A stretch of DNA of 64,000 nt from Zhongshania marina (GTDB lineage: Bacteria > Pseudomonadota > Gammaproteobacteria > Pseudomonadales > Spongiibacteraceae). The notes under the pieces are model-generated. The model ran no database searches. It saw nothing but the letters and a program-made list of their open reading frames with translations, and was not told the DNA's origin. Positions 851-17,630 of the stretch are shown here, piece after piece (the stretch's first letter is position 1; each line of letters opens with the position of its first letter). The stretch is taken from positions 1 through 64,000 of the forward strand of contig NZ_PQGG01000035.1 in NCBI RefSeq assembly GCF_002915595.1, in the 5' to 3' direction. Both the position numbers and the translations under genes were made by a program.

Positions 851-868
851 TAGACGGGAATCCGTCTA
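851..868. promoter_or_regulatory. Palindrome upstream of the phosphotransferase gene
   Basis: Seven-base arms TAGACGG and CCGTCTA flank a 4-nt GAAT centre, about 78 bp before the downstream start codon. No T-run follows, so an operator is more likely than a terminator. The binding protein is unknown. Confidence 0.35.
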
Positions 869-945
869 TCGAGTGTGGGATCAATGCTTGTTAGTATCTC
901 TATATCGCTTATCGACTAAATATAATTACCTAGGTGTTTAGAGTA

Positions 946-2091
946 ATGAAATTATCATTTGAAGAAATAAAATCTCGTTTTGATGTGGAAAATGCCGCGC
1001 GCAGTGTGGTTACCCGCGCGGACCAAATTCCTATGGCCTACGATTTGCTCAGCAAGGAATGGTTTACGGATGTACTTTGTAAAAACCAGACCGGTACAGA
1101 AGTAGTTGATTGGCGCTTAGGTGATGAAGACGAGGGAACATCTAGTCGCCGTAGAATTTTTCTAGAATACAATAAGCCCGAGTCTGGTCTACCGAGTAGC
1201 GTGTTCTGCAAATCGACTTTTACACTGGCAAGCCGCTGCTTGTTAGGTATGAATGGCGCCATTGAGGGCGAGGTGAACTTCTACAACATCATTCGTCCAC
1301 AATTACAATTAGAAGCGCCGAAGAGCTTATTCGCCAATTTTAATCCCGAAACCCTCAACTCCATTGTCATGCTAGAAGATATGAGTAATGACGTTACCTT
1401 CTGTGATCACCGCACTGTGGTCACCGAAAAAATGGCGCTTGAACAGGTTTCATTGCTGGCTAAATTGCATGGCAAATACTACGAAAGTGATGCCTTTAAA
1501 GGTGAGTTGTCTTACCTGAATACCTGGGAAGATTTTTTTACAATTACCGCCAATGAAGCGGGATTTGGTCCACAGGCTGATATCGGCTTTAAAGAGGCGA
1601 GAGAGGTCATTCCTGCGCGCTTATTTAAGCAAGCAGACAAGGTCTGGCCTGCAACCTTGCAAAGTGTGGCGCGCCACGCGCAGCTTCCCCATACCCTTGT
1701 TCATTCTGATGTGCATTTGAAAAATTGGTATATCACCGCTGACAATCATATGGGTTTGAGTGACTGGCAGTGCATGTGTGTTGGGCATTGGAGTCGAGAC
1801 ATCGCCTATGCACTCTCTACTGGATTGGCGACGGCAGATCGTCGAGCATGGGAAAAAGACTTAATTATTCATTATTTGGCTGAGTTAAAGGCCAATGGCG
1901 GTCCTGAAACGTCCTTTGATGAGGCGTGGACCCAGTATCGGCAGCAGTTGTTTGGTGCTTTAGCGTGGTGGACGCCGGTGCTTAGCCCTAATCCTGATGT
2001 GCCAGATATGCAGCCAAGAGATACCTCTTTAGAGTTTATTGGCAGAATGACTCACGCTATAGACGATTTAGATGCTTTGAATAGCTTTTAA
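946..2091 (+). CDS. APH-family phosphotransferase (ecdysteroid-kinase-like)
   Basis: A 381-residue soluble protein of the aminoglycoside-phosphotransferase/ecdysteroid-kinase-like fold. Such enzymes move the gamma phosphate of ATP to a hydroxyl on a small substrate. The catalytic loop HSDVHLKNW places the base at Asp255 and a metal ligand at Asn260, and LSDWQ at residues 271-275 supplies the second Mg-binding aspartate (Asp273). I chose the ATG at 946 because AGGTG at 932-936 is a suitable ribosome-binding site; an in-frame GTG at 934 lacks one. The gene stands alone and ends at a strong hairpin. Proteins of this type are common among acyl-CoA and steroid catabolic genes, and two further APH genes occur in this window. 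The substrate is unknown. Confidence 0.8.
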   Translation: MKLSFEEIKSRFDVENAARSVVTRADQIPMAYDLLSKEWFTDVLCKNQTGTEVVDWRLGDEDEGTSSRRRIFLEYNKPESGLPSSVFCKSTFTLASRCLLGMNGAIEGEVNFYNIIRPQLQLEAPKSLFANFNPETLNSIVMLEDMSNDVTFCDHRTVVTEKMALEQVSLLAKLHGKYYESDAFKGELSYLNTWEDFFTITANEAGFGPQADIGFKEAREVIPARLFKQADKVWPATLQSVARHAQLPHTLVHSDVHLKNWYITADNHMGLSDWQCMCVGHWSRDIAYALSTGLATADRRAWEKDLIIHYLAELKANGGPETSFDEAWTQYRQQLFGALAWWTPVLSPNPDVPDMQPRDTSLEFIGRMTHAIDDLDALNSF

Positions 2092-2101
2092 TATAGTAAG
2101 G

Positions 2102-2137
2102 GTGCGGCTCAAAACCGGCAAAGATTTTGAGCCGCAC
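2102..2137. terminator. Hairpin between convergent genes
   Basis: A perfect 13-bp stem (2102-2114 with 2125-2137, arm GTGCGGCTCAAAA) with a 10-nt loop lies between the convergent phosphotransferase and LuxR genes. There is no clear T-run, so its efficiency is uncertain, but its position suggests a shared terminator. Confidence 0.6.
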
Positions 2138-2178
2138 TGTGAGATCATTTATTGATGGTGTCGGCGTCGCACAGCGTA

Positions 2179-2946
2179 TTATTTTGGCAGCTGGGCTAGC
2201 GTCGCTATTAGTTCTGTGCGGCTGTGAACACTAAATTTTTTGTAGATATTTCGCAGATAATTTTCAATCGTGTATTCGGAAAGGTTTAAGGTCGCACTGA
2301 TTTTTTTGTTGCTTTTTCCTCTGACTAATTCATTCACAACATCCGCCTCGCGCTGGCTTAGACCGTAATCTCCACGGCAAATTGTTGTAGCGTCAATAAT
2401 AGCGTGCTGCGGTTCATTGTGAAGTCGCTGCCGAATTGACGATTCGATGAGAGTGTCTGCGCAGACCTCTAACCAGTTTTCTACAAGTTGGCTGGCAGCA
2501 TCTAGTTGTAGCTGAGTTCTGTTCCGCGCCCCCTTAGATAAGAGTAGCCCCACAACCAAGTGCAAGTTCTTGCTAATGCCATGTGTGTAGGCAGCCGTTT
2601 CTCGGTAACCCGCATGGCTGAGAACATCTTGGTATAAAGCGTCGGAATTTAGCGTGCTTTCTAGTTGTTGGCGTTTTGTGTTTGTTTGGCCAATGTCCGT
2701 TCGGCGGATATTGTCGGTGTCGCTTGTACCGGCGTGGGGAAGTAGTGGGTCGTGTAGACAGATTCGCTTGCTGTAATTGGCGGCGAGGGTGGCTGGTATG
2801 CCGTCATTAAATAAAAAAGTAATAGGGTGTTGGGGGGTGCTGCGATCGTAAAGCATTAAGGCGATATGATTGGCCCTAGTGATCCGCATTATGTTGTTTG
2901 AAAACTGTTTATCGGCGGCCTGAAATTGCTGCGTATAGCTATTCAT
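2179..2946 (-). CDS. LuxR-family transcriptional regulator
   Basis: A 255-residue regulator with a C-terminal LuxR-type helix-turn-helix over roughly residues 193-250: LSQREADVVNELVRGKSNKKISATLNL followed by SEYTIENYLRNIYKKF. The N-terminal 180 residues carry no domain I can name with certainty. A phosphoacceptor receiver domain is not evident, and a ligand-binding role is possible. It is clearly related to the regulator at 17770-18522: both share SEYTIEN, an I-Y-K/R-KF segment and VHSRT near the end. The two genes sit at opposite ends of the alicyclic-acid island, which suggests both control it. The start at 2946 has GGGG a few bases upstream. Confidence 0.85.
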   Translation of the reverse strand: MNSYTQQFQAADKQFSNNIMRITRANHIALMLYDRSTPQHPITFLFNDGIPATLAANYSKRICLHDPLLPHAGTSDTDNIRRTDIGQTNTKRQQLESTLNSDALYQDVLSHAGYRETAAYTHGISKNLHLVVGLLLSKGARNRTQLQLDAASQLVENWLEVCADTLIESSIRQRLHNEPQHAIIDATTICRGDYGLSQREADVVNELVRGKSNKKISATLNLSEYTIENYLRNIYKKFSVHSRTELIATLAQLPK

Positions 2947-3028
2947 TGTTTACCCCAATTATAGTTTTATCTGGAGTGTTTAACGTCGCATGGGTGTGAG
3001 GAATTTTATCGCGCTTTGGTAAGGGTAT

Positions 3029-3060
3029 AAAGCAACCCCGCAAGATGGCGAGGCTGCTTT
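3029..3060 (-). terminator. Terminator of the badH-badI operon
   Basis: Arms 3029-3041 and 3048-3060 surround a 6-nt loop. In minus-strand RNA all 13 pairs form, two of them as G-U wobbles. In plus-strand RNA those two positions would be A-C mismatches. The asymmetry and the UUUAU that follows mark it as a terminator for the minus-strand operon. Confidence 0.6.
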
Positions 3061-3065
3061 ATCAT

Positions 3066-3854
3066 TTAGAATTGACGGAAGTTAGGCTTACGTTTTTCGT
3101 TAAACGCGTTTACGCCTTCTTTCGACTCTTCTGTATCGTAATACAATTTTACGGCATTGAGGCCCATCATGCTGATACCGCGAATAGACTCGGAATCGCA
3201 GTTAAATGAACGCTTAGCCAGTGCCAGCGCAGTGGGGCTGTGTTCCATGATAGTTTCGCACCAGCTTGTTACTTCAGCTTCTAGTTCAGCGGCGGGAACG
3301 ACCTTGTTTACCAAGCCCATATCCATCATTTCTTGTGCAGTGTAGCGCTTGCACATATACCAAATTTCGCGGGCTTTCTTTTCGCCAACGATACGCGCTA
3401 AATAGGCCGTGCCCCAGCCGGCATCAACAGAACCAACTTTAGGTCCTACTTGGCCCATTTTTGCGGTATCAGCCGCAATAGTCATATCGCAAATTGTGGC
3501 GAGCACGTGTCCGCCACCAATCGCAAAACCATTTACCGCTGCAATAACGGGCTTGGGAATATCGCGGATGGCAGATTGCAGCTCGTCAATTGGCAGGCCT
3601 ACCACACCGCGGCCATCGTAGTCGCCGTCGTGGTTAGACTGGTCGCCACCGGTGCAGAACGCTTTGTCGCCAGAACCGGTTAGTACCACTACGCCCACGC
3701 TTTTGTCGCTAGCGGCGGTCAAGAAGGCGTGAATAAGTTCTTCGATGGTTTTGCCACGGAAGGCGTTGTAAACCTTGGGACGGTTAATGGTAATCCACGC
3801 TGCCCCATTGCGGTTTTCGTAGGTAATGTCTTCATAAGGTGTATTTGCAAACAT
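3066..3854 (-). CDS. badI: 2-ketocyclohexanecarboxyl-CoA hydrolase (BadI-like)
   Basis: Hydrolytic ring cleavage: opens 2-oxocyclohexane-1-carboxyl-CoA to a pimelyl-CoA-type dicarboxylic monothioester. The 262-residue protein is a crotonase of the MenB/BadI clade. CTGGDQ at 67-72 and GFAIGGGH at 109-116 form the oxyanion hole, and QVGPKVGSVDAG at 135-146 and YDTEESKEGVNAF near the C-terminus follow. The stretch YDGRGVVGLPIDELQ matches what I remember of Rhodopseudomonas BadI (YDGRGTVGLP) and differs from the corresponding MenB loop, which favours BadI over naphthoate synthase; no men genes are nearby. It lies 37 bp downstream of badH in the same operon. A ring substituent such as isopropyl is possible but cannot be read from the sequence. 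Confidence 0.9.
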   Translation of the reverse strand: MFANTPYEDITYENRNGAAWITINRPKVYNAFRGKTIEELIHAFLTAASDKSVGVVVLTGSGDKAFCTGGDQSNHDGDYDGRGVVGLPIDELQSAIRDIPKPVIAAVNGFAIGGGHVLATICDMTIAADTAKMGQVGPKVGSVDAGWGTAYLARIVGEKKAREIWYMCKRYTAQEMMDMGLVNKVVPAAELEAEVTSWCETIMEHSPTALALAKRSFNCDSESIRGISMMGLNAVKLYYDTEESKEGVNAFNEKRKPNFRQF

Positions 3855-3891
3855 AGTAATTTACCTCTTTAAAGCTGTGTTTAAACGGGAC

Positions 3892-4659
3892 TTAGCCGTG
3901 CATTGTTAAGCCGCCGGAAACAGAAATGGTCTGTCCGGTGATGTAGTCAGCGTCGTCGCTACCAAGGAAGGCGATGATGCCTGCGTAGTCATCTGCTTTA
4001 CCCATACGGCGCAGTGGAATACCTCTAGCCATTGAGTCCTTCCATTTTTGCGCTTCTTCACCAGTACCTGCTACGGCTGCCATTGCAGGAGTATCGGTTG
4101 GGCCAGGGCAAACGGAGTTTACTAATACATTGTTGCGCGCTAATTCGCGTGCGATTGATTTACCAAATGCGATTGTGCCGCCTTTACAGGCTGAATATAC
4201 CGCCTCATGGCTGGTGCCAACACGACCTGCATCAGAGGCGACGTTGATGACGCGTCCAGCGTTGCGTTCGGCCATGCGTTTGCAGACTGCTGCGTGCATG
4301 TGTATTGGGCCGTAAAGGTTTAGATTAATAATTTTTTGCCACAATTCCGGCGTGGTTTTGAGGAAAGGCGTGATTTGATCCCAGCCCGCATTGTTTACCA
4401 ACATCCAGATTGGTCCAAGCGTTTCTTCAACTTGGGCTACGGCAGCTTCTACGGCATCCATATTGGTGATGTCAGCAATAAAAGGCGTTACGCTGCCCGC
4501 TGCCGAGCTAGCTTTGGCGGCAACTTGCTCTGCTGCTGCGCCATTGATGTCGAATAACGCGACTTTGCAGCCTTCTTCGGCTAGACGTAAAACTATTGCT
4601 TCACCAATGCCGCTGCCACCACCGGTAACGATGGCAACCTTTCCATTTAAGCCTTTCAT
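3892..4659 (-). CDS. badH: 2-hydroxycyclohexanecarboxyl-CoA dehydrogenase (BadH-like)
   Basis: An NAD-dependent short-chain dehydrogenase of 255 residues predicted to oxidise 2-hydroxycyclohexanecarboxyl-CoA to the 2-keto ester used by BadI. The Rossmann motif TGGGSGIG is at 12-19 and NNAGWD at 89-94. The catalytic triad is Ser142, Tyr155 and Lys159 (ASDAGRVGTSHEAVYSACKG). The C-terminus DYITGQTISVSGGLTMHG matches remembered BadH sequences closely. It is the first gene of a two-gene operon with badI. The 150-bp upstream region has a copy of the shared 18-bp motif at 4756-4773, so control with the other island operons is likely. Confidence 0.88.
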   Translation of the reverse strand: MKGLNGKVAIVTGGGSGIGEAIVLRLAEEGCKVALFDINGAAAEQVAAKASSAAGSVTPFIADITNMDAVEAAVAQVEETLGPIWMLVNNAGWDQITPFLKTTPELWQKIINLNLYGPIHMHAAVCKRMAERNAGRVINVASDAGRVGTSHEAVYSACKGGTIAFGKSIARELARNNVLVNSVCPGPTDTPAMAAVAGTGEEAQKWKDSMARGIPLRRMGKADDYAGIIAFLGSDDADYITGQTISVSGGLTMHG

Positions 4660-4755
4660 GTGTTGATAAACTCCTACTTTACGAACTATTAAAGGGTGAG
4701 TTTGATAAAGGAAAACACCCTGACTGCAAATGATATCTATACTACATTAACTGTT

Positions 4756-4788
4756 CGCATGATTACAATATGCAAACACTTATATCAA
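4756..4788 (-). promoter_or_regulatory. badHI promoter region with shared motif (site C)
   Basis: The plus strand at 4756-4773 reads CGCATGATTACAATATGC, which matches the motif at 8063-8080 (reverse strand) at 15 of 18 positions. Minus-strand TTGATA (4788-4783) and TAATCA (4765-4760), 17 bp apart, are a possible -35/-10 pair for badH overlapping the motif, though the -10 is weak. GCAT and ATGC form outer palindromic arms. Confidence 0.5.
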
Positions 4789-4809
4789 CTTGCGCCCGCG
4801 CTTTGGGTC

Positions 4810-6051
4810 TCACTCAGCCAGCTTTGATTCAAGGCTTTCGCGATGGTCCGGGTGGGCGATAGCAATAATGCGCTCATGTCGCTCACTCGGGGTGGCGCCC
4901 CGCAAATAGGCGGCTCCGAACTCCGTAACGACATAATCGACATCAAACTGAGGTACGCTCACGGGGGTGCCACTGCGAAATTTCGCGGTAATACGCGAGT
5001 GCTTGCCGCTGGGATCGGTCGACGGGAGGGCTACAATTGACAGGCCATCTTGCTGGCGGCTGGCGGCGGCAGCAAAGTCGGGGAGCCCCCCTGGTGCACT
5101 GACGTATTTGTTGTTCAAGGTCTCAGCGTTTACTTGACCCAATACATCTACCTCCAGCGCAGAGTTAATGGCGTGAAGTTTGGGTACTTTGACCAGTACT
5201 GCTGGGTCGTGGGTAAACTCCGCACCGGCAATGTTTAGGGATTGCAGAGTGGGAAGTTGTTTATATAAGTTTTCTGAGCCCACAAATACCGCGGTTGTTA
5301 AGGCATTTTTTTCGCGCAGTGCGCCACTGCTTGCTAGTGGCAGTATCGAGTCAGATAACATGCCGGTGTGAAATCCAAGTTCGCGATGATCGCGCAGCGC
5401 CGCTAAAAGCTGGGAAGGAATTTTTCCTAGGCCGATTTGCAGCGTGGCACCGTTGGGAATGAGTGCCGCGATGTGCTGTGCAATGGCTTCTGATGTGGCG
5501 TTGCTACTACCCGCGTCGTAGCTTTCTAGCGGGGTGTTTGATCTAGCTGTCGCCGTTAGTCGGCTTGCAGCCAAACTGGGTGCTGATGGCGTATTGGGGG
5601 TGTTTGGGTTTATCAGGCCAAGTATTTTGCAGTCGCGGGCGATCAAGCCAGGAAGAAACTCGGCATGGGGGCCGAGTGAGTGGCGGCCATCGACTGCATC
5701 GGCAACTTGCACGACAAGCCAGTCGATACGGGTGCTGGCGGCGCAAAGATATTGTTGTATCTGTTTAAAACTGATTGGCCGAAATTTTATCCCGCCTTTT
5801 TCGTAGTCTTTGCGAAAATGACTTTGCATAAAAAACACCGCCATTTTGCGTTTTGTTTCAATATTGCAAAGATTGCGAGTGTTGATACCCGGGACAAAGC
5901 TGGTAATGAATGTGACGCCGGGTGCAAGGTCTGGATTATTTACCAACATCTCGGTGAGTTCACTCGGTTCGCCGGCGCTACCAGGTATGAACACAGTATC
6001 GCCAGGTTGAAAGTGGGCGGCGAGTTGTTCTATGTCAGCTGCGGTGTTCAT
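4810..6051 (-). CDS. Acetyl-CoA hydrolase/transferase family protein, catalytic Glu absent
   Basis: A 413-residue member of the acetyl-CoA hydrolase/4-hydroxybutyrate CoA-transferase family, which moves CoA between carboxylic acids through a glutamyl-CoA intermediate. The CoA-binding glycine loop is visible as LQIGLGKIPSQLLAAL, and NSALEVDVLGQVN follows about 80 residues later. At the site where the family normally has HTEM, with the glutamate as nucleophile, the sequence is LGFHTGMLSD. The codon is GGC, two base changes from a Glu codon, so a single sequencing error does not explain it. The protein may be a thioesterase, use another residue, or have lost activity. It lies 15 bp downstream of the acetoacetyl-CoA synthetase gene, suggesting linked work on a 3-keto or dicarboxylic acid CoA ester. 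Confidence 0.8.
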   Translation of the reverse strand: MNTAADIEQLAAHFQPGDTVFIPGSAGEPSELTEMLVNNPDLAPGVTFITSFVPGINTRNLCNIETKRKMAVFFMQSHFRKDYEKGGIKFRPISFKQIQQYLCAASTRIDWLVVQVADAVDGRHSLGPHAEFLPGLIARDCKILGLINPNTPNTPSAPSLAASRLTATARSNTPLESYDAGSSNATSEAIAQHIAALIPNGATLQIGLGKIPSQLLAALRDHRELGFHTGMLSDSILPLASSGALREKNALTTAVFVGSENLYKQLPTLQSLNIAGAEFTHDPAVLVKVPKLHAINSALEVDVLGQVNAETLNNKYVSAPGGLPDFAAAASRQQDGLSIVALPSTDPSGKHSRITAKFRSGTPVSVPQFDVDYVVTEFGAAYLRGATPSERHERIIAIAHPDHRESLESKLAE

Positions 6052-6066
6052 TTTGTATCCCTTAAT

Positions 6067-8019
6067 TTATTTGGCAAGTTCGGCGCGATTGCGAAAGTGC
6101 TCCAAGGATTCTGGATTGGCTAAAGCGTGTATCTGTGATGGTTCGCGGCCATTAATAAGTGCAGATACGGCGGTTTCAGCATTTTTTCCGCTGCGAGTTT
6201 TGGGAATGTCATCAACGGCAATAATGAACTTTGGTACATGTCGCGGCGATGCATTTTCGCGGAGAAGCTGGCGAATTTCTGCGCATAATTCATCGCTTAG
6301 TTGTTGACCTTGCGCCAAAACAACAAACAGTACAACGCGAACGTCATTGTCGTATTGTTGGCCGGCGACGACACAGTTCTCGATACATTCTATTTTTTGG
6401 ACTTGGCGGTAAATTTCTGCGGTGCCGATGCGGACGCCACCGGGGTTTAAAACGGAGTCGGAGCGGCCGTGAATGATAAAGCCGCCATTCAGTGTTTCCT
6501 CTGCAAAGTCACCGTGGGTCCATACGTCGGGAAAGCCTGCAAAATATGATTTGGTAAAGCGCTTATTGCCGGGATCGTTGGCAAAGCGTACCGGCATGCT
6601 CGGTGCAGGTGCGCAGCAAACCAGTTCCCCGCGTTCGCCGATGACAGGATTACCGTCTTCATTAAAAATTTGCACGTCCATACCAAGGGCTGGCCCCTGC
6701 ATTTCTCCGGCGTAGACTGACTGCCATTTATTGCCAAGCATAAAGCAAGAGACAATATCTGTACCGCCAGAGCCGGTAGTCAGATGGACTTGGGGTGAAA
6801 CGTGCTCGTATACGTATTCAAATCCTTCTGGAGATAAGACTGAGCCGCCGGCAAAAATTAATTTTAAATCCTTGAGCGGCACCTGGCCTTTGATATCAAT
6901 TTGCTTTTGACCGCAGCGTTCTAAAAAGGCGCTTGGTAGGCCAAGTGTGTTAACTCGTAGCTGCTGCGCAAGCCGGAAAATAGACAGCTCATCCGGCGCG
7001 ACGACGGAGCCATCATAAAGTATGACTGTGGCACCACTAGCTAGGGCACTAATACTCCAATTCCACATCATCCAGCCAAGGGTAGAGGGAAAAATTACCC
7101 GTTGTTGCGCGCTAATATCACAGTGCAATTGGTGCTCTTTGGTGAGCTGGATTAGGGTGCCGCCGTGGCCGTGAACAATACATTTTGGCGCGCCGGTTGT
7201 GCCAGAGGTAAAGAGTACAAATAAGGGGTGGTGAAAGGGCAGGCGAATAAAGTCAGGCTGTTGTGTGTTGTCTGAGGGGAGGGCGTCCTCTAAGTGTACA
7301 CCGACACTGCCTTCGGGCCAGCCGCCGCCAATTTTTACTAAGCGCTTCAGGCTTGGTAAGTCGGCGGCAATCTTGTCGATATTAGCCGCTACATTATAGC
7401 TCTTGCCATTAAAGCGATATTCCGCCACCGAATATAAGACACAAGGATTTACTTGCCCGAGTCGGTCGAGAGCGGCGGCGACCCCAAAATCTGGCGACAC
7501 CGAGGCCCAGCTGGCACCAATACTGGCGGCGGCAAGCATGATTGCTACAGCTTCACCAGCATTAGGTAATACACCGGCGACACAATCGCCCGCGCTAACG
7601 CCGAGTTCGCGGAGTGCTCGTTGGTGTTGAGAAACTCTGCAGCGTAATTCTGAAAAGCTCCAGTGCCGACCTTCACCTTCTTCACCGGCTTCAATAAGTG
7701 CGGTCCAGTGGCCCGGCCAGCGCAGCATGTTTTCTGCGTAGTTAATATTTAACTGGGGAAACCAGCGGGCAAATGGTGCTTGTTCGGTGTTGATTCGGGC
7801 GGGGTGTATGTCGCCGTCATACACAAGACCAAATGCGCTAATGCATTCCGTCCAAAAGGCTTCGGGATTTTGTATAGACCACTGATGTAGGGCGCGAAAG
7901 TCGTGATTAAAGCTGAGCTTATGGGTGGCTTCGATGCCTTTGGCAAAGCTGCTCAATTTAGCAAGTGCTATATCGTCTTTTGATGGTGACCAGAGCGGCA
8001 GAGTCGAGGTAGCTGTCAT
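6067..8019 (-). CDS. Acetoacetyl-CoA synthetase (acetoacetate-CoA ligase)
   Basis: A 650-residue ANL-superfamily adenylating enzyme that activates acetoacetate or a related 3-oxo acid with ATP and CoA. The N-terminus PLWSPSKDDIALAKLSSFAKGIE and NINYAENMLRW are typical of acetoacetyl-CoA synthetases. The P-loop is LFTSGTTGAPKCIVHGHGG, the hinge region carries GRSDSVLNPGGVRIGTAEIY, and the C-terminal adenylation lysine lies in TRSGKNAE. It is first in an operon with the atypical CoA-transferase. The predicted promoter has -10 TACAAT inside the shared 18-bp motif, so I infer co-regulation with badHI. The true substrate could be a larger 3-oxo acid from ring cleavage. Confidence 0.87.
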   Translation of the reverse strand: MTATSTLPLWSPSKDDIALAKLSSFAKGIEATHKLSFNHDFRALHQWSIQNPEAFWTECISAFGLVYDGDIHPARINTEQAPFARWFPQLNINYAENMLRWPGHWTALIEAGEEGEGRHWSFSELRCRVSQHQRALRELGVSAGDCVAGVLPNAGEAVAIMLAAASIGASWASVSPDFGVAAALDRLGQVNPCVLYSVAEYRFNGKSYNVAANIDKIAADLPSLKRLVKIGGGWPEGSVGVHLEDALPSDNTQQPDFIRLPFHHPLFVLFTSGTTGAPKCIVHGHGGTLIQLTKEHQLHCDISAQQRVIFPSTLGWMMWNWSISALASGATVILYDGSVVAPDELSIFRLAQQLRVNTLGLPSAFLERCGQKQIDIKGQVPLKDLKLIFAGGSVLSPEGFEYVYEHVSPQVHLTTGSGGTDIVSCFMLGNKWQSVYAGEMQGPALGMDVQIFNEDGNPVIGERGELVCCAPAPSMPVRFANDPGNKRFTKSYFAGFPDVWTHGDFAEETLNGGFIIHGRSDSVLNPGGVRIGTAEIYRQVQKIECIENCVVAGQQYDNDVRVVLFVVLAQGQQLSDELCAEIRQLLRENASPRHVPKFIIAVDDIPKTRSGKNAETAVSALINGREPSQIHALANPESLEHFRNRAELAK

Positions 8020-8062
8020 AACTTGGGTTCCGATTTTGAACTTGCTGATTTTTAGGTATTAA

Positions 8063-8095
8063 GCATATTGTAAGCTAGCGATATAATTCAGTCCA
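8063..8095 (-). promoter_or_regulatory. Promoter and shared motif (site A) for the acetoacetyl-CoA synthetase operon
   Basis: On the minus strand TGGACT (8095-8090), a 17-bp spacer and TACAAT (8072-8067) form a sigma-70-type promoter about 45 bp before the ATG. The -10 lies inside CGCTAGCTTACAATATGC (8080-8063), the shared motif. Binding there would block transcription, consistent with a repressor site. Confidence 0.6.
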
Positions 8096-8204
8096 TAGAT
8101 GTATTAAAGGCCATGGATTCTTTAGTTCTTTGATCAAAGTAGCGCAGCAAAGGTAATATATTGAGTAACCTTGCATATAGTTTGCTTTATTACTAAATTT
8201 GTGC

Positions 8205-8330
8205 AAGCATAAGTCAAGAGTTGGTGTTCTCACACAAATTTTTTGCGGTGCAAAATATTTGCCCGTATTAATTGCGAACTTACTTCCAGGTGAGTGTATC
8301 TTTGGCCGCTATACAGCGGCCTTTTTTTTT
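8205..8330 (+). ncRNA. Candidate small RNA ending in a strong intrinsic terminator
   Basis: No plus-strand gene lies between 8020 and 8303, yet a strong plus-strand terminator stands at 8304-8330. A possible promoter is TTGCAT (near 8172), a 17-bp spacer and TAAATT, predicting a start around 8205 and a transcript of about 125 nt. The only open frame through here runs across the terminator and has no ribosome-binding site. Promoter and 5' end are inference. The rest of the 8020-8499 gap holds the promoters described separately. Confidence 0.4.
8304..8330 (+). terminator. Strong Rho-independent terminator without an upstream gene
   Basis: The stem GGCCGCT/AGCGGCC (8304-8310 and 8315-8321) with a 4-nt loop is followed by nine T. 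The T-run is only on the plus strand, so it ends plus-strand transcripts. Confidence 0.9.
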
Positions 8331-8499
8331 GGCTCCGCTGCTTGCTGCATGTGGTCCTATTATTGTGTGTGCAGATATGATCGTTGTTTGCTGGGGTGAA
8401 ATATTACAGATTCATTAAAGTGAATTGTATTTTGCGTATATAGTGTATGATTAGCATAGTTATAGTTAATATTTTCGTATATACACAATGAGGTCGGTG

Positions 8500-9006
8500 A
8501 TGGCTGCAAAAGGAAAGTCGCTCGGGTATGACGCTGCACTGTCAAATGACTTTCTCGAATCAGAGGAAGATTTGGTATTGCGTTTGGGGTTTATTATTCA
8601 TGACGCTGCTCGGCTTCGCCGCATAGTCATCGATGATTTGTTCAAACCGTTAAAGGTTACTCGTTCACAGGCGTGGGCAATGGCGTATTTATCGCGCCGT
8701 GATGGTGTGCCTCAGTCAGATCTTGCTGATGAGATGGGCTTGGGTAAGGTTACCTTAGGTGGTTTGATTGATCGCCTGCAAGATGTTGGCATGGTAGAGC
8801 GCCGTGCAGATGCTAGTGACCGTCGTATTAAGCGTATACACCTCACGCCAGAAGGCCGCCGCGTTATTAAAGAAATGCGGGTGTTAACGGTTCAAGCGAA
8901 CGAGGATATGTTGGCGGGAATCAGTATTGACGAAGTTCGTGGCTGTGTTGAAATGTTGAGAAAGCTGAATAAAAACCTTGATGCAATGAAGGGTAAAATT
9001 AGTTAG
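8500..9006 (+). CDS. MarR-family regulator (BadR-like)
   Basis: A 168-residue winged-helix MarR protein. The DNA-binding region runs from about residue 50 (VTRSQAWAMAYLSRRDGVPQ), with recognition helix GLGKVTLGGLIDRLQDVGMVERR and the wing DASDRRIKRIHLTPEGR. In Rhodopseudomonas the cyclohexanecarboxylate ring-cleavage genes are controlled by a MarR repressor, BadR. Its position next to badHI-type operons makes this a likely functional equivalent that senses a ring acyl-CoA. I prefer the ATG at 8500 because GAGG (8490-8493) is a well-spaced ribosome-binding site; an in-frame ATG at 8488 lacks one. A weak match to the shared motif at about 8454 may allow autoregulation. Confidence 0.82.
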   Translation: MAAKGKSLGYDAALSNDFLESEEDLVLRLGFIIHDAARLRRIVIDDLFKPLKVTRSQAWAMAYLSRRDGVPQSDLADEMGLGKVTLGGLIDRLQDVGMVERRADASDRRIKRIHLTPEGRRVIKEMRVLTVQANEDMLAGISIDEVRGCVEMLRKLNKNLDAMKGKIS

Positions 9007-9024
9007 TAGCTTTACGCTAATTGC

Positions 9025-9067
9025 AAAAAAATACCCGCAGCCTTGCAGAGGTTGCGGGTATTTTTTT
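9025..9067. terminator. Bidirectional terminator between convergent genes
   Basis: The stem ATACCCGCA-G-CC (9031-9042) pairs with GG-T-TGCGGGTAT (9050-9061) around a 7-nt loop. It is flanked by seven A on the left and seven T on the right, so it serves both the MarR gene and the minus-strand ligase operon. Confidence 0.9.
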
Positions 9068-9082
9068 GTCTGAACGCGCGGT

Positions 9083-10651
9083 TTACACTGCGCGCTTTTG
9101 GCCTTGCCAATAAGGTGCTCTCAAATCCTTTTTAGAAACTTTTCCGGCGCCGGTGCGAGGGAAGTCATCAACGAAATCCACGCTTTTGGGGCATTTATAC
9201 CCTGCTAGATTCTCTTTGCAATGGGCAATGAGTTCGGCTTCGGTTGTTGATTGGCCGGGTTTTAGCATAATAAATGCTTTCACTTCTTCGCCCCATTTTT
9301 CGCTTGGTATGCCAATGATGGCGGCGGCAGCAACGGCGCCGTGAAGTGACAGGCAGTTTTCTACTTCTGAGCAGTAGATATTCTCGCCTCCGCTGACGAT
9401 CATGTCTTTTGCGCGGTCAATTAAATAGAAGTAGCCATTGTCGTCGTAGTAGCCAATGTCGCCAGTTTTATACCAGCCGTCGTTGTATACCTCACTCCAA
9501 GCCTCAGGTTTATTCCAGTAGCCTTTGGTAATTGCTGGATTGAGAATGACCATTTCGCCAGGGCTATTGGCGGGAAGCGCATTGCCTTCACTATCGAGAA
9601 TTTTAATCTCAATGAGTGGAAGTGGCTTGCCACATGAGGTGAGAATATTGTCGTCGTCTGAATAATGATCGTCTGGTCTCAATAGCGTAATCGCGCCACC
9701 AGACTCAGTGGCGCCATAAAATTGCATGAATTTGCAGGGGATTGCTTCAATGGCACGTTTTAGCAAGCCCTTAGAAATTGGAGAGCCCGCGTATAAAATT
9801 TCGCGAATACCACTAAAATCGGTGTTTGCAGAATTTGGGTGATCCAGTAGAAATTGGATCATTACCGGTGCCAATCCCATTAGAGTCGGCTTGTGGGCAT
9901 TAATAACGGCCAGTACTTCCTCGGGGTCAAAGCGCGGCGCTATAACTATGCATGCGCCGTTATACATGGCTTGCATAGACAGACCTAGTCCGAGCAGGTG
10001 GAAGCTCGGTACGCAGAATAGGTAGCGATCATTCGCTCCCCAGGTGTATGCCGGCTCTAAATGCTCACATAGGCGCATATTCATTATGCCAGCATGAGTT
10101 AGTTCTACACCTTTGGGGGCACCCGTGGTCCCAGAGGTATAAATTTGCCATGCAGTACTGTCGCCTTCGCAAATAAAGTGCGGATCTGAGTTATCAAATT
10201 TACTGGCCCATTGCCAAAATGGATTGTCAGCCTGCTTACCTGGATCAATGTAAATCGTCTTGATTTTTTGCGTAAGTTTGGTCTGTACCTCTTCCCATGT
10301 TGCTTTGTAAATGAGATCTACCAGCGCGATTTTTGGCGCGCTATCTTCGACAATGGCGGTAATTTCGGGAACACTCAGTCGCCAGTTCAAGGGGATGAAT
10401 GCCGCGCCAATTTTTGCAGAGGCGTAAATGGTTAAAAAATAATCGTCTGCATTACCCGCAAAATAAAGAACGCGATCCGTTGCTACCACGCCTTCGGCGC
10501 TTAAGCCATTTGCCATGCGACTCGATAGTTCATGGACGTCTGACCAGCTAAGGCTGTGATCACAAAATATGGTGCTGGGTTTGTCGCTGTAGTTCTTTGC
10601 ATTGTAACGAACAATATCTGCAACGTTTTTGATTTCGGGATAGGGCCACAT
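9083..10651 (-). CDS. Acyl-CoA ligase, candidate cyclohexane-type carboxylate activator
   Basis: A 522-residue AMP-forming acyl-CoA synthetase. IYTSGTTGAPKGVELTH is the P-loop, QFYGATESGG the A4-type motif, YKTGDIGYYDDNGYFYLIDR the A7/A8 region, and PRTGAGKVSKKDLR carries the catalytic lysine. It resembles the medium-chain/aryl acid ligase group rather than long-chain FadD. It is the last gene of a four-gene operon with reductases and a crotonase, so activation of an alicyclic acid such as cyclohexanecarboxylate or a p-menthane-derived acid is the most natural role (the AliA position in the known pathway). The exact acid cannot be told from sequence. Confidence 0.82.
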   Translation of the reverse strand: MWPYPEIKNVADIVRYNAKNYSDKPSTIFCDHSLSWSDVHELSSRMANGLSAEGVVATDRVLYFAGNADDYFLTIYASAKIGAAFIPLNWRLSVPEITAIVEDSAPKIALVDLIYKATWEEVQTKLTQKIKTIYIDPGKQADNPFWQWASKFDNSDPHFICEGDSTAWQIYTSGTTGAPKGVELTHAGIMNMRLCEHLEPAYTWGANDRYLFCVPSFHLLGLGLSMQAMYNGACIVIAPRFDPEEVLAVINAHKPTLMGLAPVMIQFLLDHPNSANTDFSGIREILYAGSPISKGLLKRAIEAIPCKFMQFYGATESGGAITLLRPDDHYSDDDNILTSCGKPLPLIEIKILDSEGNALPANSPGEMVILNPAITKGYWNKPEAWSEVYNDGWYKTGDIGYYDDNGYFYLIDRAKDMIVSGGENIYCSEVENCLSLHGAVAAAAIIGIPSEKWGEEVKAFIMLKPGQSTTEAELIAHCKENLAGYKCPKSVDFVDDFPRTGAGKVSKKDLRAPYWQGQKRAV

Positions 10652-10671
10652 GATATTTGGTCTCTTGTTAT

Positions 10672-11460
10672 TTATTTGTAGTTAAAAACGGGTTTCTGTT
10701 TTTTTGCAACGGAGTTGACGGCATTCCAGGTATCGTCGCGTCGGGTGCAATCAGCAAGGGCGCGGGCCTCTTGCTCAAGCTGTGCCTCTAGGGTGTTTTC
10801 TTGGCTGGAGTGGAACAAGTTTTTAATTTGCCCATATGTATAGGTTGGGCCTTGTGCCAGTTCTTCTGCCAGTGCTAGAGCTTTTTCAGCCAGTTGTTCA
10901 CTTGGAATAATCTCGCTGGCGAGTCCGTATTCTAAGCATTGCTCGGCAGACCACTTTTGATTTCTGAGATAAAAATCAAAGGCTTTGCGTTGGCCCACGC
11001 GGCGCGGCATAAAATACGAAGAGCCGCTGTCGCAGGAAAAGCCGATACCGCTAAATGCGGCGTAGACGCTCGCTTTTTCACTGAGTAAGGCGTAGTCGGC
11101 GGCGGCGACAATTGCAACCGCACCGCCTGCGGCTAGGGCGTCACAGGCGAGTATAACCGGTGCGTCACCCCGTGCCAGGCGCGAAACACCCGAGTGTAGA
11201 TCACTGGTTGCAGACTTAATAAATCTTGGCAATCCATCGCGATCACCTAAGAAAGTTTTAAGATCGCCGCCAACGCTGAAATACGGTCCATTTGAGTCTA
11301 TAAGTACGGCGCGCACCTCGGGATTTTCGTCGCACTCGTTAGCAATTTCTTTAAACTCTCGGCAAAACCTAGCGTCAAACGGGTTGCCGCGTTCTGGTTG
11401 GTTTAAGGTAATGTGCCCAACGTTATTGCGGATCTCAAATAAAAATGATTCCAACTTCAT
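10672..11460 (-). CDS. Enoyl-CoA hydratase/isomerase family, PaaG-like isomerase
   Basis: A 262-residue crotonase. The oxyanion-hole segments are FSVGGDLK at 61-68 and LAAGGAVAI at 109-117. The two catalytic glutamates of true enoyl-CoA hydratases are not present: the usual PEI-LG segment reads FSGIGFS. Asp144 in CDSGSSYFMPRRVG occupies the place of the catalytic aspartate of PaaG (PDCGGTWLLPR), and the rest of the C-terminal half also follows PaaG. I therefore expect double-bond isomerisation of a ring enoyl-CoA rather than hydration. Its neighbours, a dienoyl-CoA-reductase-like SDR and an MDR enoyl reductase, fit an unsaturated ring substrate. No canonical BadK-type hydratase is apparent in this island. 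Confidence 0.8.
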   Translation of the reverse strand: MKLESFLFEIRNNVGHITLNQPERGNPFDARFCREFKEIANECDENPEVRAVLIDSNGPYFSVGGDLKTFLGDRDGLPRFIKSATSDLHSGVSRLARGDAPVILACDALAAGGAVAIVAAADYALLSEKASVYAAFSGIGFSCDSGSSYFMPRRVGQRKAFDFYLRNQKWSAEQCLEYGLASEIIPSEQLAEKALALAEELAQGPTYTYGQIKNLFHSSQENTLEAQLEQEARALADCTRRDDTWNAVNSVAKKQKPVFNYK

Positions 11461-11487
11461 TTTGATTACTCCAAATACTTTTCTTGG

Positions 11488-12369
11488 TTAGCCGACGCTG
11501 CGCTGGGTTTTTTCTTTTTCAGCAGACGCTTTAATGGAGTCCCGAACCGATGACCAGTCGTCATCAGACCAGCTACCTAAGCTTGCAAAGGTGCTTGGCG
11601 CAGCTAGGTGGTGACCGCCGTCTATACCAATGGTTTGACCGGTAATATAGTCACAGCCGTCGGCTTGTAAGAAAGTCATTAAGTTCGCTAGTTCTTGCAT
11701 CTCGCCGTAGCGTCCCATTGGTACGGTGCTGGCGTCGGTGGCGCCAGTTGATGTACCGGTGGGGTTCAGCTTGTCCCAAGCGCCTTCAGTTGGGAAGGGG
11801 CCGGGGGCAACGGCGTTTACGCGAATGCCGTAACGTCCCCATTCAACCGCGAGCGATTTGGTCATGGAGTCTATGGCGGTTTTAGCCATTGCGGACGGTA
11901 CGACATAGGCTGAGCCAGTCCATACCCACGTTACCAAATTGCTCACGATAGAGCCTTTAATGCCTTCTTTTATCCAGCGCTTACCAATAGCGAGCACGGT
12001 GTAAAACGCGCCGTCCATAACGGTGGAGCGTATGGCTTGATAACCGCGTGGAGATAGGTCTTTGGTGGGCGAAATAAAGTTGGCGGCGGCATTGTTAATT
12101 AGACCGGTTAATGCGCCTTCTTCCCAAATAGACGCCACCATTGTCTCAATCGCATCTGGGTCGCGAATGTCGGTTACGCGGTAGTGAATCTTGCCAGAGC
12201 CTATTTTTGCTAGCTCAGCAACTGTTTCTTGCAATACTGATTCACGACGACCGCAGATGTAGACTTCAGCGCCGTAGCTTAGTAAGCCTTTCGCGATTTC
12301 TTTGCCGAGACCAGTGCCGCCACCGGTGATGAGTACGCGTTTGTTCGCAAGTGTAGAGTCTTTAAACAT
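11488..12369 (-). CDS. SDR oxidoreductase, 2,4-dienoyl-CoA reductase-like
   Basis: A 293-residue short-chain dehydrogenase with the cofactor loop TGGGTGLG at 15-22 and NNAAAN at 92-97. The usual YxxxK motif is not present: the sequence around residues 153-166 is SAYVVPSAMAKTAI, with Tyr155 eight residues before Lys163 and Ser159 at the usual Tyr place. This arrangement and the following MTKSLAVEWGRYGIRVNAVAPGP are characteristic of 2,4-dienoyl-CoA reductases (DECR type), which use NADPH to reduce conjugated dienoyl-CoAs. The C-terminal 40 residues are charged and extended. It is the second gene of its operon and probably removes a ring double bond before hydrolytic cleavage. Confidence 0.83.
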   Translation of the reverse strand: MFKDSTLANKRVLITGGGTGLGKEIAKGLLSYGAEVYICGRRESVLQETVAELAKIGSGKIHYRVTDIRDPDAIETMVASIWEEGALTGLINNAAANFISPTKDLSPRGYQAIRSTVMDGAFYTVLAIGKRWIKEGIKGSIVSNLVTWVWTGSAYVVPSAMAKTAIDSMTKSLAVEWGRYGIRVNAVAPGPFPTEGAWDKLNPTGTSTGATDASTVPMGRYGEMQELANLMTFLQADGCDYITGQTIGIDGGHHLAAPSTFASLGSWSDDDWSSVRDSIKASAEKEKTQRSVG

Positions 12370-12402
12370 AGTGTTATCTCTTAGTGATGATATTTAGTTG
12401 GT

Positions 12403-13416
12403 TTAATCTGCCAATTTAATTAAACGTTTGCCAAGATTGTCGCCGCGATAAAGTGCGGCGATTGAGTCTGGGGCTTCTTCTATGCCGTGTTTTATTTCTT
12501 CTCTGTAGTGTAGTCGACCTTCGAGTATCCACTCGCTTAACTGCTTGACGCCTTCGTGATAGCGATCGGCGTAGTCGAAAATTACAAAACCTTCCATACG
12601 CGCACGCTTGACGAGTAAGTGGCGCTCTACACGCGGGCCGAGTGGGATCGGGCTCCATTGAGAAATTGACGCGGTGCCGCAGATAACAACCCGAGCGCGC
12701 TGATTGAGAAGCGTTAACGCCGCGTCGCTAATACGGCCCGCGGTATTGTCAAAATAAACGTCGATGCCGTCGGCGCAGGCATTGGCGAGTTCTTCGACAA
12801 AGTTGGGGGAGTTGTAGCTAACGGCTTTGTCGTAGCCAAACTCATTAATGCAAAGTTCAATCTTCTCGGGGCTGCTGGTAATGCCAATGGTTTTGCAGCC
12901 CTTAATTTTGGCAATTTGCGCAACACAAGATCCCACGGCTCCGGCGGCTGTCGACACTAATACGGTATCGCCAGGCTTGGGTAATCCCACTTCAAGTAGT
13001 GCAAAGTAGGCGGCAAGCCCGTTAATCCCTAAAATACCAAGTGCGGTAGAAATGGGGAGTTGGCTAGTGTCGATGACGCGGTCGATGTTTGTGGCGTCGG
13101 TGGTGGTATGGCTTTGCCAGCCAAACATGCCTAGTACATGCTGACCGACATGGTAATCAGGGCTTTTGGATTCAATAATTTCGCCAACGGCTAAAGAACG
13201 CATCACTGTATTAATACCAACGGGTTCTGAGTAGTTGCCAGCGTCGCATATCCAGCCGCGCATGGCGGGCTCTACAGAGAGATAGTGATTGCGTATAAGG
13301 ACTTGCCCATCTTTAGGTGGGATGATCGGGCATTCAGATATTGTGAAATTCTCCGCCTGGGGTATACCTTTAGGGCGCGAATTTAACAAAACCTGTGTGT
13401 TGGTTGCATTGCTCAT
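12403..13416 (-). CDS. NADP-dependent MDR oxidoreductase (enoyl/prostaglandin-reductase type)
   Basis: A 337-residue zinc-free medium-chain reductase of the leukotriene B4 12-hydroxydehydrogenase/CurA type, which reduces alpha,beta-unsaturated carbonyls with NADPH. The N-terminal catalytic domain has the family stretch YLSVEPAMRGW. The Rossmann domain begins VLVSTAAGAVGSCVAQIAKIKGC near residue 150, and DVYFDNTAGRISDAAL follows. No structural-zinc cysteine cluster is present. It is the first gene of the four-gene operon and lies next to shared motif site B. An unsaturated ring ketone or enoyl ester is the probable substrate. Confidence 0.82.
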   Translation of the reverse strand: MSNATNTQVLLNSRPKGIPQAENFTISECPIIPPKDGQVLIRNHYLSVEPAMRGWICDAGNYSEPVGINTVMRSLAVGEIIESKSPDYHVGQHVLGMFGWQSHTTTDATNIDRVIDTSQLPISTALGILGINGLAAYFALLEVGLPKPGDTVLVSTAAGAVGSCVAQIAKIKGCKTIGITSSPEKIELCINEFGYDKAVSYNSPNFVEELANACADGIDVYFDNTAGRISDAALTLLNQRARVVICGTASISQWSPIPLGPRVERHLLVKRARMEGFVIFDYADRYHEGVKQLSEWILEGRLHYREEIKHGIEEAPDSIAALYRGDNLGKRLIKLAD

Positions 13417-13492
13417 ACATGTTCCTAGGGTGGGCCGATTGCAAACCGTTGCACCGACTAATCGTGTTGTTCTGCGTGCTATGTATTTTATA

Positions 13493-13510
13493 CGCTAGCT
13501 TATAGTATGC
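13493..13510. promoter_or_regulatory. Shared motif (site B) upstream of the MDR-SDR-isomerase-ligase operon
   Basis: The sequence is CGCTAGCTTATAGTATGC, identical to site A at 16 of 18 positions. It lies about 75 bp before the start of the MDR reductase gene, inside an AT-rich stretch. I could not fix the -35/-10 pair for this operon. Confidence 0.55.
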
Positions 13511-13645
13511 ATAAATATATGTTGGCTTACAACTTGTTAAAGTGAATTTTGGCGGGGCCTTTCGGCCCACTGCTACTTTATTAAGAGGGTGAATTTGGCC
13601 GCGGTAGAATGGTTTTGAGCTATGCTGAAATTGTGTGAGTTCGTG

Positions 13646-13678
13646 TTGACATAAAAAGTACGCTTACTTATATTAACC
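13646..13678 (+). promoter_or_regulatory. Sigma-70 promoter of the reductase-ALDH-ADH operon with motif-like site D
   Basis: TTGACA (13646-13651), a 17-bp spacer and TATATT (13669-13674) form a near-consensus promoter about 70 bp before the GTG start. The sequence starting at 13661 (CGCTTACTTATATTAACC) agrees with site B at 13 of 18 positions and covers the -10. Confidence 0.7.
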
Positions 13679-13747
13679 ATATAAACCTAATTATTAATTT
13701 ATGAACCAATGGCAGCGTATATGCAAGTTGGTGGTCAGGAGTAAGGT

Positions 13748-14815
13748 GTGGCACTTTTTGATTTTTTAAAACCCTCCGCAAAGACGGTCACTATATTGCC
13801 AGCGGGCGTCAGTTTTGACGTAAAGCCGGGGCAATCGGTGTTAGAGGCTGGGCTTTCTCATGGTTACGCCATGCCTCATAGCTGTACGGTGGGTACCTGC
13901 GGCAGCTGCAAGTGCAAATTGGCCGAAGGCAAAATAAAGGAATTAACTGATTTCGCCTATGTCTTGGAAGCCGATGAATTACAGAGCGGCATTATATTGA
14001 CGTGTCAAAGTGCCTTGAAAAGCGACGTTACCCTTAATATCCCGAATTTTGAGCTAAAACAGTTGCATCCGCCGGAAGATTACGACGGCAAGATCACTAA
14101 AACAGAAAATCTCACCCACGACACCAAGAAAGTCAGCATCTTATTAGATAGGCCAATCTGGTTCGACGCGGGTCAGTACGTGCAATTAGAAGTAGAAGAA
14201 GGTCTGGCTGCACGCTCTTACTCATTCGCCCTACCTCCTGCAGAAGACGGCTGTCGAGAAATTGAGTTATTTATTCGGCAGGTACCGGGTGGCGAGTTTA
14301 CCGGTATGTTGTTTGACGGCAAGTTAGATGGCAAAAGTGTCAAGGTGCATGGGCCTTCAGGGAATTTCTGGCTGCGGGATGGCAAGGGGCCAATCATTTG
14401 TGTGGGCGGTGGCAGTGGTTTAGCGCCTATTGTAAGTCTTTTGGAGCAGGCAGCTAAATCTCCGCTTGGCCGACCCTGCATTATGCTGTTTGGTGCTCGA
14501 ACCCAGGAAGATTTGTATTGCTTAGAGCGTATTGAAGAGATTGCCGCGAAATGGGATGGCGCGTTTACCTTTGTGCCGGTTCTGTCCAATGAGCCCGAGG
14601 GCAGTGGATGGACTGGACATACTGGGTTTGTAAACACCGTGATAGAGCAAGTGGCCGCCCAGCATTTATCTAACGAAACGCAGGTTTACCTGTGTGGGCC
14701 ACCGCCAATGATCGATGCGGTGACTGACACCGTCTTAAAACTAGGCATTGTTTCAGAAAATATTCACGCTGATAAATTTTTAGACGCCAGTCATGGCCTT
14801 GCGCGACAAAACTAA
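13748..14815 (+). CDS. Ferredoxin-NAD(P)H reductase component of an oxygenase
   Basis: A 355-residue electron-transfer flavoprotein. Residues 14-100 are a plant-type [2Fe-2S] ferredoxin domain with ligands Cys46, Cys51, Cys54 and Cys86 (SCTVGTCGSCKCK and LTCQS). An FAD domain follows with RSYS at 156-159, then an NAD domain with CVGGGSGLAPIVSLLEQA and, near the end, YLCGPPPMIDAV. This is the XylA/CymAb/phenol-hydroxylase-reductase layout that feeds electrons to a hydroxylase. It heads an operon with aldehyde and alcohol dehydrogenases, as in toluene/xylene and p-cymene methyl oxidation, but no hydroxylase gene is in the window. The start is a GTG with AGGAG six bases before it. Confidence 0.88.
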   Translation: MALFDFLKPSAKTVTILPAGVSFDVKPGQSVLEAGLSHGYAMPHSCTVGTCGSCKCKLAEGKIKELTDFAYVLEADELQSGIILTCQSALKSDVTLNIPNFELKQLHPPEDYDGKITKTENLTHDTKKVSILLDRPIWFDAGQYVQLEVEEGLAARSYSFALPPAEDGCREIELFIRQVPGGEFTGMLFDGKLDGKSVKVHGPSGNFWLRDGKGPIICVGGGSGLAPIVSLLEQAAKSPLGRPCIMLFGARTQEDLYCLERIEEIAAKWDGAFTFVPVLSNEPEGSGWTGHTGFVNTVIEQVAAQHLSNETQVYLCGPPPMIDAVTDTVLKLGIVSENIHADKFLDASHGLARQN

Positions 14816-14915
14816 AGTTGGGTACGGCTTGGCGCTGATCCACTGATACTGGTGGGAATTCGGCCCAAGCCATTTGCAGTTTTAATTACTTCTTTAATAA
14901 GAACAGGAACACATT

Positions 14916-16385
14916 ATGAATACTATCGAAGATGCAGTTATTCCCTCAGGAAAAATGCTGATTGGTTCAAACTGGACGTTTGCGCAAAGTGGCCAAACCC
15001 TAGAAGTAATTAACCCTGCAACAGGTCGTTCATTTGCAAGCGTGGCTGCGGGCGGGGCAGAAGAGGTTGATGCCGCGGTAAAAGCTGCGCGCGCTGCCTT
15101 TGAATCTCCGGGTTGGGCTAAAATGCGCCCTATTGATCGCAGTAAATTATTAGAGCGTGTTGCCCAAATAATTGAAGAACATGCTGAAGAGTTGGCCCTA
15201 TTAGAAAGCTTGGACAACGGTAAGCCTAAGCATTTGGCGATGATGGTCGATATTCCATCCGCTGTCGAAGTCTTTCGCTATATGGCGGGCTGGTGCACTA
15301 AGATTTATGGCAAAACGCTGCCGGTGTCTGGTGATGGTCGCCAGTATCACGCTTATACACTGCGCCAACCGATTGGCGTTGTAGGTGCAATAGTGCCTTG
15401 GAACTACCCATTGGCAATGGCGTCTTGGAAGATCGCCTCGGCATTGGCTGCAGGCTGTACAATGGTACTCAAACCCTCTGAAGTGACATCTTTAACTGCC
15501 TTGCGTCTTGGCGAGCTGATGCTTGAAGCTGGTGTACCACCGGGCGTGCTCAACATTGTTACCGGCGATGGCCAATCTGCGGGCGAGGCGCTGATTACTC
15601 ACCCAGACGTCGACAAAATTGCGTTTACAGGTTCGACTCCCGTTGGTAAACACATTATGCGCACGGCAGCGAATGATATGCGCCGCGTAAGCTTAGAGCT
15701 TGGCGGTAAATCACCAACCATCATCATGCCAGATGCCGACCTCGAGCGTGCGATTCCTGACGCCGCAATGGCCATTTTCTTTAACTCTGGACAAACTTGC
15801 TTTGCTGGCTCGCGCCTGCTTTGTCACGAGTCGATTTACGACACTGTTATTGCTGGTATTGCAGAAGTCGCTAAGGCGCTGCCGATTGGTCACGGTCAAG
15901 ACCCTACTACCATGATTGGCCCCGTGGTCAATAAAAAGCAGCAAGATCGTATTCAAAGTTATATTGATATTGGTCAGCAAGAGGGCGCAGAGGCAATCTC
16001 GGCGGGTAGTCCTTTGCCTAGCGAAGGTTATTTTATCGAACCCACTATTTTGTCCAATGCGACCGCAGATTCGCGCGTATTTAACGAAGAAATTTTTGGC
16101 CCAGTGTTAGCGGCAACCAAGTTTAAAGACATGGACGAAGCTATTTCGCTGGCAAACAAAACTCGCTTCGGTCTGGGCGCCAATATCTACAGTAAAGACA
16201 TGAATACCTGCCACAAAATGGCGGCGGGCATTCATGCCGGTACCATTTGGTTGAACACCTATTTTGTTGTCGATGCTGCAATGCCATTTGGCGGCTTTAA
16301 AGAGTCAGGCGTTGGTCGCGAAGTGGGCGACGAAGGTGTGTTGATGTACACCGAGTCTAAATCTGTTTGTGCACTGTTAGACTAG
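14916..16385 (+). CDS. NAD-dependent aldehyde dehydrogenase
   Basis: A 489-residue aldehyde dehydrogenase that oxidises an aldehyde to the acid. PWNYPL at 161-166 and FTGS at 237-240 contribute to cofactor binding. The general base is Glu261 (LELGGKSP) and the nucleophile Cys295 (NSGQTCFAGSR). Its length and motifs fit the benzaldehyde/geranial/betaine-aldehyde group. Lying between a ferredoxin reductase and a Zn alcohol dehydrogenase, it should carry out the second step of methyl-group oxidation, giving an aromatic, cumic-type or alicyclic acid for the CoA ligase. The 100-bp gap before it contains a possible hairpin with GGCTTGG/CCAAGCC arms. Confidence 0.9.
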   Translation: MNTIEDAVIPSGKMLIGSNWTFAQSGQTLEVINPATGRSFASVAAGGAEEVDAAVKAARAAFESPGWAKMRPIDRSKLLERVAQIIEEHAEELALLESLDNGKPKHLAMMVDIPSAVEVFRYMAGWCTKIYGKTLPVSGDGRQYHAYTLRQPIGVVGAIVPWNYPLAMASWKIASALAAGCTMVLKPSEVTSLTALRLGELMLEAGVPPGVLNIVTGDGQSAGEALITHPDVDKIAFTGSTPVGKHIMRTAANDMRRVSLELGGKSPTIIMPDADLERAIPDAAMAIFFNSGQTCFAGSRLLCHESIYDTVIAGIAEVAKALPIGHGQDPTTMIGPVVNKKQQDRIQSYIDIGQQEGAEAISAGSPLPSEGYFIEPTILSNATADSRVFNEEIFGPVLAATKFKDMDEAISLANKTRFGLGANIYSKDMNTCHKMAAGIHAGTIWLNTYFVVDAAMPFGGFKESGVGREVGDEGVLMYTESKSVCALLD

Positions 16386-16496
16386 ACTTTTTAAGTATTT
16401 CCAAACCTTACCCTTTGCAGCATAAGCGGCGGGGGGTAAGTAATAAAATCCGCGCTGGCTATCGAGCATTTAGCGCAAGTCTTATTAGGGAAAAAT

Positions 16497-17600: not shown

Positions 17601-17630
17601 TCACGCCATAGCTCGGAGCTAGTTTTATCA

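Follow-up and report, generated by a model that had tools for sequence, protein, structure and literature searches.

Four promoters of a Zhongshania ring-acid catabolic island share a conserved 12-bp operator, with a SlyA-type MarR protein as its likely repressor

Introduction

BadR, described in Rhodopseudomonas palustris and Aromatoleum sp. CIB, is a MarR-family repressor of cyclohexane carboxylate genes, among them badH and badI, and its operator, CAATN2ATTG or CAAN4TTG, overlaps the promoter boxes (PMC9795900). The badR gene usually lies divergent from the bad catabolic genes. SlyA of Salmonella and Escherichia coli binds a 12-bp site, TTAGCAAGCTAA, composed of two 5-bp halves around a 2-bp centre (PMC5797941). 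Here we compare with these systems a catabolic island found in a 64-kb window (the whole stretch of DNA that was analysed) of a Zhongshania genome, four promoters of which share a short conserved site.

Results

The island and its relatives

Between two genes for GerE/LuxR-type regulators, the island carries its genes in the following order.

2179-2946, minus strand: luxR1, GerE-type regulator (PF00196) adjoining badI; badH-badI-luxR1 synteny in six genomes
3066-4659, minus strand: badI and badH, the operon behind site A; best matches TIGR03210 and TIGR03206, both below the curated cut-off
4810-8019, minus strand: CoA-transferase and acetoacetyl-CoA-synthetase-like ligase (AACS-CoAT), the operon behind site B
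8488-9006, plus strand: marR, MarR/SlyA-type regulator of 172 aa and candidate repressor; PF12802 and PF01047 above cut-off
9083-13416, minus strand: ACS, ECH, SDR and MDR, the operon behind site C
13748-17600, plus strand: Fe-S/FAD reductase (FdxR), aldehyde dehydrogenase (ALDH) and alcohol dehydrogenase (ADH), the operon behind site D
17770-18522, plus strand: luxR2, GerE-type regulator (PF00196) flanking FdxR-ALDH-ADH

The island reads as a set of genes for the breakdown of ring carboxylic acids; we can only infer the exact substrate, because the best matches of badH and badI fall below the curated cut-offs. A second badI, 91% identical, is found on contig 24 of this genome, G000 (37056-37841, locus L070), with no badH directly upstream.

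The whole island is present in the same order in two further Zhongshania genomes, G006 and G016, with 96-98% identity for marR and 67-76% for the LuxR-type genes. Five sister genomes encode a MarR that is about 70% identical (marR-a) in a different gene setting, and in four of these five the ACS-ECH-SDR genes are divergent from the reductase genes. When named genomes were scanned with the MarR protein, matches came only from Zhongshania aliphaticivorans and one Zhongshania MAG.

From an 18-bp motif to a 12-bp core

The initial annotation proposed that an 18-bp motif is shared by the island promoters. Its three strong copies are indeed present: with the copy at 8063-8080 (minus strand) as the reference, those at 4756-4773 and 13493-13510 (both plus strand) differ at three and two positions, and at three mismatches or fewer the window holds no other match (shuffled sequences gave a mean of 0.09 and never three). 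The weaker copy at 13661-13678 is also real, matching the 13493 copy at 13/18 positions and, by hand count, the 8063 copy at 12/18. The motif was also expected to be rare, and it is not a common genomic word: at this threshold the 4.13-Mb genome contains five matches in all, three of them in the island, and the reversed pattern gives three. A loose 14-bp pattern covering sites A-D showed no genome-wide enrichment, with seven matches in G000 (four of them A-D) and five in the control.

The 18-bp frame itself had to be revised, as the unit conserved in sister genomes is a 12-bp core, TWCGC-NN-RCKTA, offset by 2 bp so that it reaches 2 bp beyond the CGC end of the 18-mer. This core was defined from eight sister-genome sites, one in each SDR and reductase promoter of four genomes (for example, TACGCATGCGAA and TTCGCAAGCTTA). 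The GCATA end common to A, B, and C is missing from the sister FdxR and SDR sites. A 17-bp dyad, GCATA-N7-TATGC, taken from one badH promoter, was set aside because it is absent from those same sister sites. The dyad symmetry of the core is modest (3-5 of 6 pairs). The sites and promoters of the island are listed below, with ranks from the matrix described in the next paragraph.

4754-4765, minus strand: site A, operator core TAATCATGCGAA, overlapping the badH -35 (TTGTAA); 18-mer at 4756-4773, plus; conserved in G006 and G016
8067-8095, minus strand: AACS-CoAT promoter TGGACT-17-TACAAT, with operator B in the spacer; conserved in G006 and G016
8071-8082, plus strand: site B, operator core TAAGCTAGCGAT (ATCGCTAGCTTA towards AACS), within the promoter at 8095-8067; 18-mer at 8063-8080, minus
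8451-8462, no strand assigned: weak operator-like TAACTATGCTAA / TTAGCATAGTTA before marR; rank 49 of about 128,000, regional p about 0.09; block conserved in the three island genomes
13487-13515, minus strand: probable MDR-SDR-ECH-ACS promoter TTTATG-17-TATAAA, with operator C in the same register and a weak -35
13491-13502, minus strand: site C, operator core TAAGCTAGCGTA; 18-mer at 13493-13510, plus; rank 8 at 12 bp; conserved
13646-13674, plus strand: FdxR-ALDH-ADH promoter TTGACA-17-TATATT, with operator D in the spacer
13659-13670, minus strand: site D, operator core TAAGTAAGCGTA (TACGCTTACTTA towards FdxR); rank 15; orthologous site at the same place in 8/8 genomes

A weight matrix was built from the eight sister SDR and reductase promoter sites, with no island sequence in it. 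Among the approximately 128,000 positions of the window, this 12-bp matrix placed A at rank 2, C at 8, D at 15, and B at 33; none of 2000 column-shuffled matrices matched these ranks, nor did any of 100,000 random sets of four windows. Widening the matrix brought A to rank 1 at 16 and 18 bp and B to rank 4 at 18 bp, and worsened the fit of C from rank 8 at 12 bp to 127 at 18 bp. Both operators are also present, in the same places, in the fifth sister genome, G015, which was outside the training set. Other matrix matches in the window were rejected as poorly placed: one at 27726-27737 is part of another inverted repeat, one at 63470 lies in a start-codon region, and one at 12344 is inside the SDR coding sequence. 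The window also contains an inverted repeat, TGTAGCA-N11-TGCTACA (27724-27746), upstream of a meta-cleavage-type operon (27960-38334); it is found with a change in G006, and its core is unchanged in G016.

Promoter register and conservation

The promoters on which the proposed repressor placement was based, TGGACT-17-TACAAT at 8095-8067 and TTGACA-17-TATATT (11/12 consensus letters) at 13646-13674, are as described. At B, C, and D, as well as in the FdxR and SDR promoters of the sister genomes, the core is placed in the interval from the -35 to the -10 box, and its final TA opens the latter. It occupies positions 14 to 25 of the 29-base promoter in 11 promoters (B, C, and D plus eight sister promoters) belonging to four kinds of operon. 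When this register was written as an expression and run on 1.2 Mb of strand sequence, it matched these promoters and their island orthologues only, with zero matches for the reversed control; as the expression was built from these sites, the result gauges its specificity and is not an independent discovery. Site A differs in that it overlaps the -35 of badH. Core-like sites are likewise present in the sister badH promoters (regional p 0.015-0.067), where they lie upstream of the -35 or just past the -10. The core positions at A-D and in the sister promoters suit a repressor, and the overlap with a -35 or -10 box that marks a MarR-type operator in a core promoter is seen at all four sites.

Sites A, B, C, and D stand in long, nearly unchanged blocks in G006 and G016, whereas the intergenic flanks have diverged. 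The proposal of an operator shared across the island and placed as a repressor site would be is supported. Every marR-a genome (8/8) has a single copy of the FdxR promoter and its operator, and 0/13 others have one, with zero matches for the reversed control, although this co-occurrence tracks the FdxR gene itself and is therefore not independent evidence for MarR. No comparable motif was found at badI loci outside Zhongshania. Extra reductase copies (76-77% identity) in G006 (C1:656681-657745, L107) and G018 (C1:2990288-2991343, L099) have upstream DNA without the operator. In G004, a 15-base exact match to site B, CATATTGTAAGCTAG (L080:7269-7285), is found in a different catabolic cluster, where it precedes an SDR gene by about 85-100 bases.

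The marR promoter

The initial annotation noted a weaker match near 8454 and took it as a hint of autoregulation. A 12-bp core-like site is present there, at 8451-8462, and it is weak by both rank and regional p value. MarR autoregulation through this motif is doubtful, the core being absent from the sister marR promoters. An element close to TGTTACTATATGAATAGTTAA is conserved before marR in G004, G015, G017, G018, and G019 (L022, L024, L021, L020, and L023). Within the window, this element matches site A best (4746-4767, minus strand; rank 1 at widths of 22-29), and not B. Alignment of the 18-mer to the marR promoters was dropped, as a matrix of A, B, and C gave no significant sites in most of them. 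Between site B and marR, a conserved block at 8278-8330 ends in a strong terminator (GGCCGCTATACAGCGGCC followed by a T run), with no preceding gene on the plus strand, and is kept over its full length only in the three island genomes. It is possible that this block encodes a small RNA; an Rfam search of positions 1-20000 returned no RNA at the gathering threshold.

Discussion

The sites, their conservation, and their register within promoters are computational observations. On the evidence of sequence comparison, the operator is real, conserved, of repressor type, and common to four operons, ordinary in kind and new in detail. Because the same site stands in four promoters and is kept in the matching promoters of sister species, the island genes are probably switched together. 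Our main reading, to which we give a probability of about 60%, is that the four sites are operators of one ligand-released repressor, most likely the SlyA-type MarR of the island, which would control the four catabolic units together. In the mechanism that we infer, a repressor dimer would bind the imperfect 12-bp dyad (TWCGC-NN-RCKTA towards the gene) and block RNA polymerase, either between the -35 and -10 boxes (B, C, and D) or at the -35 (A), and a pathway intermediate, perhaps an acyl-CoA, would release it. BadR, for its part, responds to cyclohexane carboxyl-CoA.

MarR was named as the natural candidate from the start, and it stands as a reasonable one; the label "BadR-like" is not supported. 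The likeness to BadR lies in a winged-helix regulator of MarR type (PF12802 and PF01047), in badH and badI as putative targets, and in an operator placed over promoter boxes. However, there is no CAATN2ATTG in the intergenic DNA of the island, the single CAAN4TTG, at 13442, is outside sites A-D, and the MarR-like proteins that other genera encode next to badI are only 24-32% identical to the Zhongshania MarRs. Given the missing CAATN2ATTG and the low identity, we advise against naming the protein BadR. As for gene arrangement, marR lies in the same island as badHI and is divergent from the AACS-CoAT operon, not from badHI. Among solved structures, SlyA is the nearest to the protein (E 7e-16), although at 76 bits the protein does not reach the NCBIfam SlyA cut-off of 120. 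The island core has a 5-2-5 layout with a GC-N2-GC centre, similar to that of the SlyA site, but has GCG for GCT and usually TAC or TAA for TTA. The outer letters differ from the SlyA forms TTAGCAAGCTAA or TTAN6TAA, and some sister badH sites, such as TTAGCATGCGAA and TTAGCAAGCGAA, come close to them. The context, ring-acid catabolism, is also unlike that of SlyA.

MarR is the sole repressor-type gene within the compact island. It is present in 8/8 operator-bearing genomes and in 0/13 others, and no other MarR is common to all eight. The best match of the sister marR promoter element to site A is a further point in its favour. Against it, neither the marR promoters of the sister genomes nor the operon next to marR in them has the core, and the element of those marR promoters matches the sister FdxR and SDR operators poorly. 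The identity of the regulator is a good guess and not a result. A similar argument from distribution can be made for the LuxR-type proteins, also named initially as alternatives. The comparison of co-occurrence with the operator covered marR-a and the luxR homologues, and the latter were present in the same eight genomes and in none of the others that were searched. In gene order, luxR1 comes after badH-badI in six genomes, and within the island luxR2 adjoins FdxR-ALDH-ADH. That co-occurrence stands, and geometry makes their binding of the sites unlikely. A typical lux box lies upstream of the -35, whereas these sites have a short 5-2-5 layout and are within core promoters. One of these promoters is near consensus, and the placement fits a repressor better than a typical LuxR activator. 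In addition, the badH promoters of G015 and G018 have core-like sites without an adjoining luxR1, and no conserved core precedes the luxR genes. It is quite improbable that the repressor is encoded elsewhere in the genome, for example by a TetR-family gene such as that at 38381-38998 of the window; TetR operators are likewise short dyads, but the only repressor-type gene in the compact island is marR.

A possible, if doubtful, refinement is that two elements overlap, with the 12-bp core bound by one protein and the GCATATTGTAA stretch, present in A and B, serving promoter function or another protein. GC(A/G)TATTGTA is conserved at the badH -35 in eight Zhongshania genomes, where it sets TTGTAA or TTGTAT as the -35 while the position of the core varies around it. 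At site B, however, the GCATATTGTAA stretch covers the -10 and not the -35, and two elements would be compatible with MarR control, refining the operator model and not replacing it. GC(A/G)TATTGTA is seen upstream of badH at loci L033, L036, L038, L026, and L053. Finally, we consider it highly improbable that the sites resemble each other by chance or through shared sigma-70 promoter letters only. At B, C, and D the core and the -10 do have a TA in common, but the CGC and GC letters are conserved outside the boxes, shuffled matrices and random windows never did as well, and the reversed register and FdxR-promoter controls were zero.

A broader proposal, which we offer tentatively, is that a genus-restricted SlyA-type MarR replaces BadR over ring-acid catabolism in Zhongshania, and that recruited operons (AACS-CoAT and MDR) gained the operator of this protein at an identical promoter register; the outcome would be a multi-operon regulon whose site does not resemble that of BadR. 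If the shared-operator reading is correct, it would define a Zhongshania regulon for the degradation of alicyclic acids, under an operator different from the one reported to be conserved in the bad clusters of most Gram-negative bacteria. It would also supply a precise 12-bp target and promoter register, testable with one protein and four fragments, and would suggest that newly added operons acquired a common operator at a fixed promoter position.
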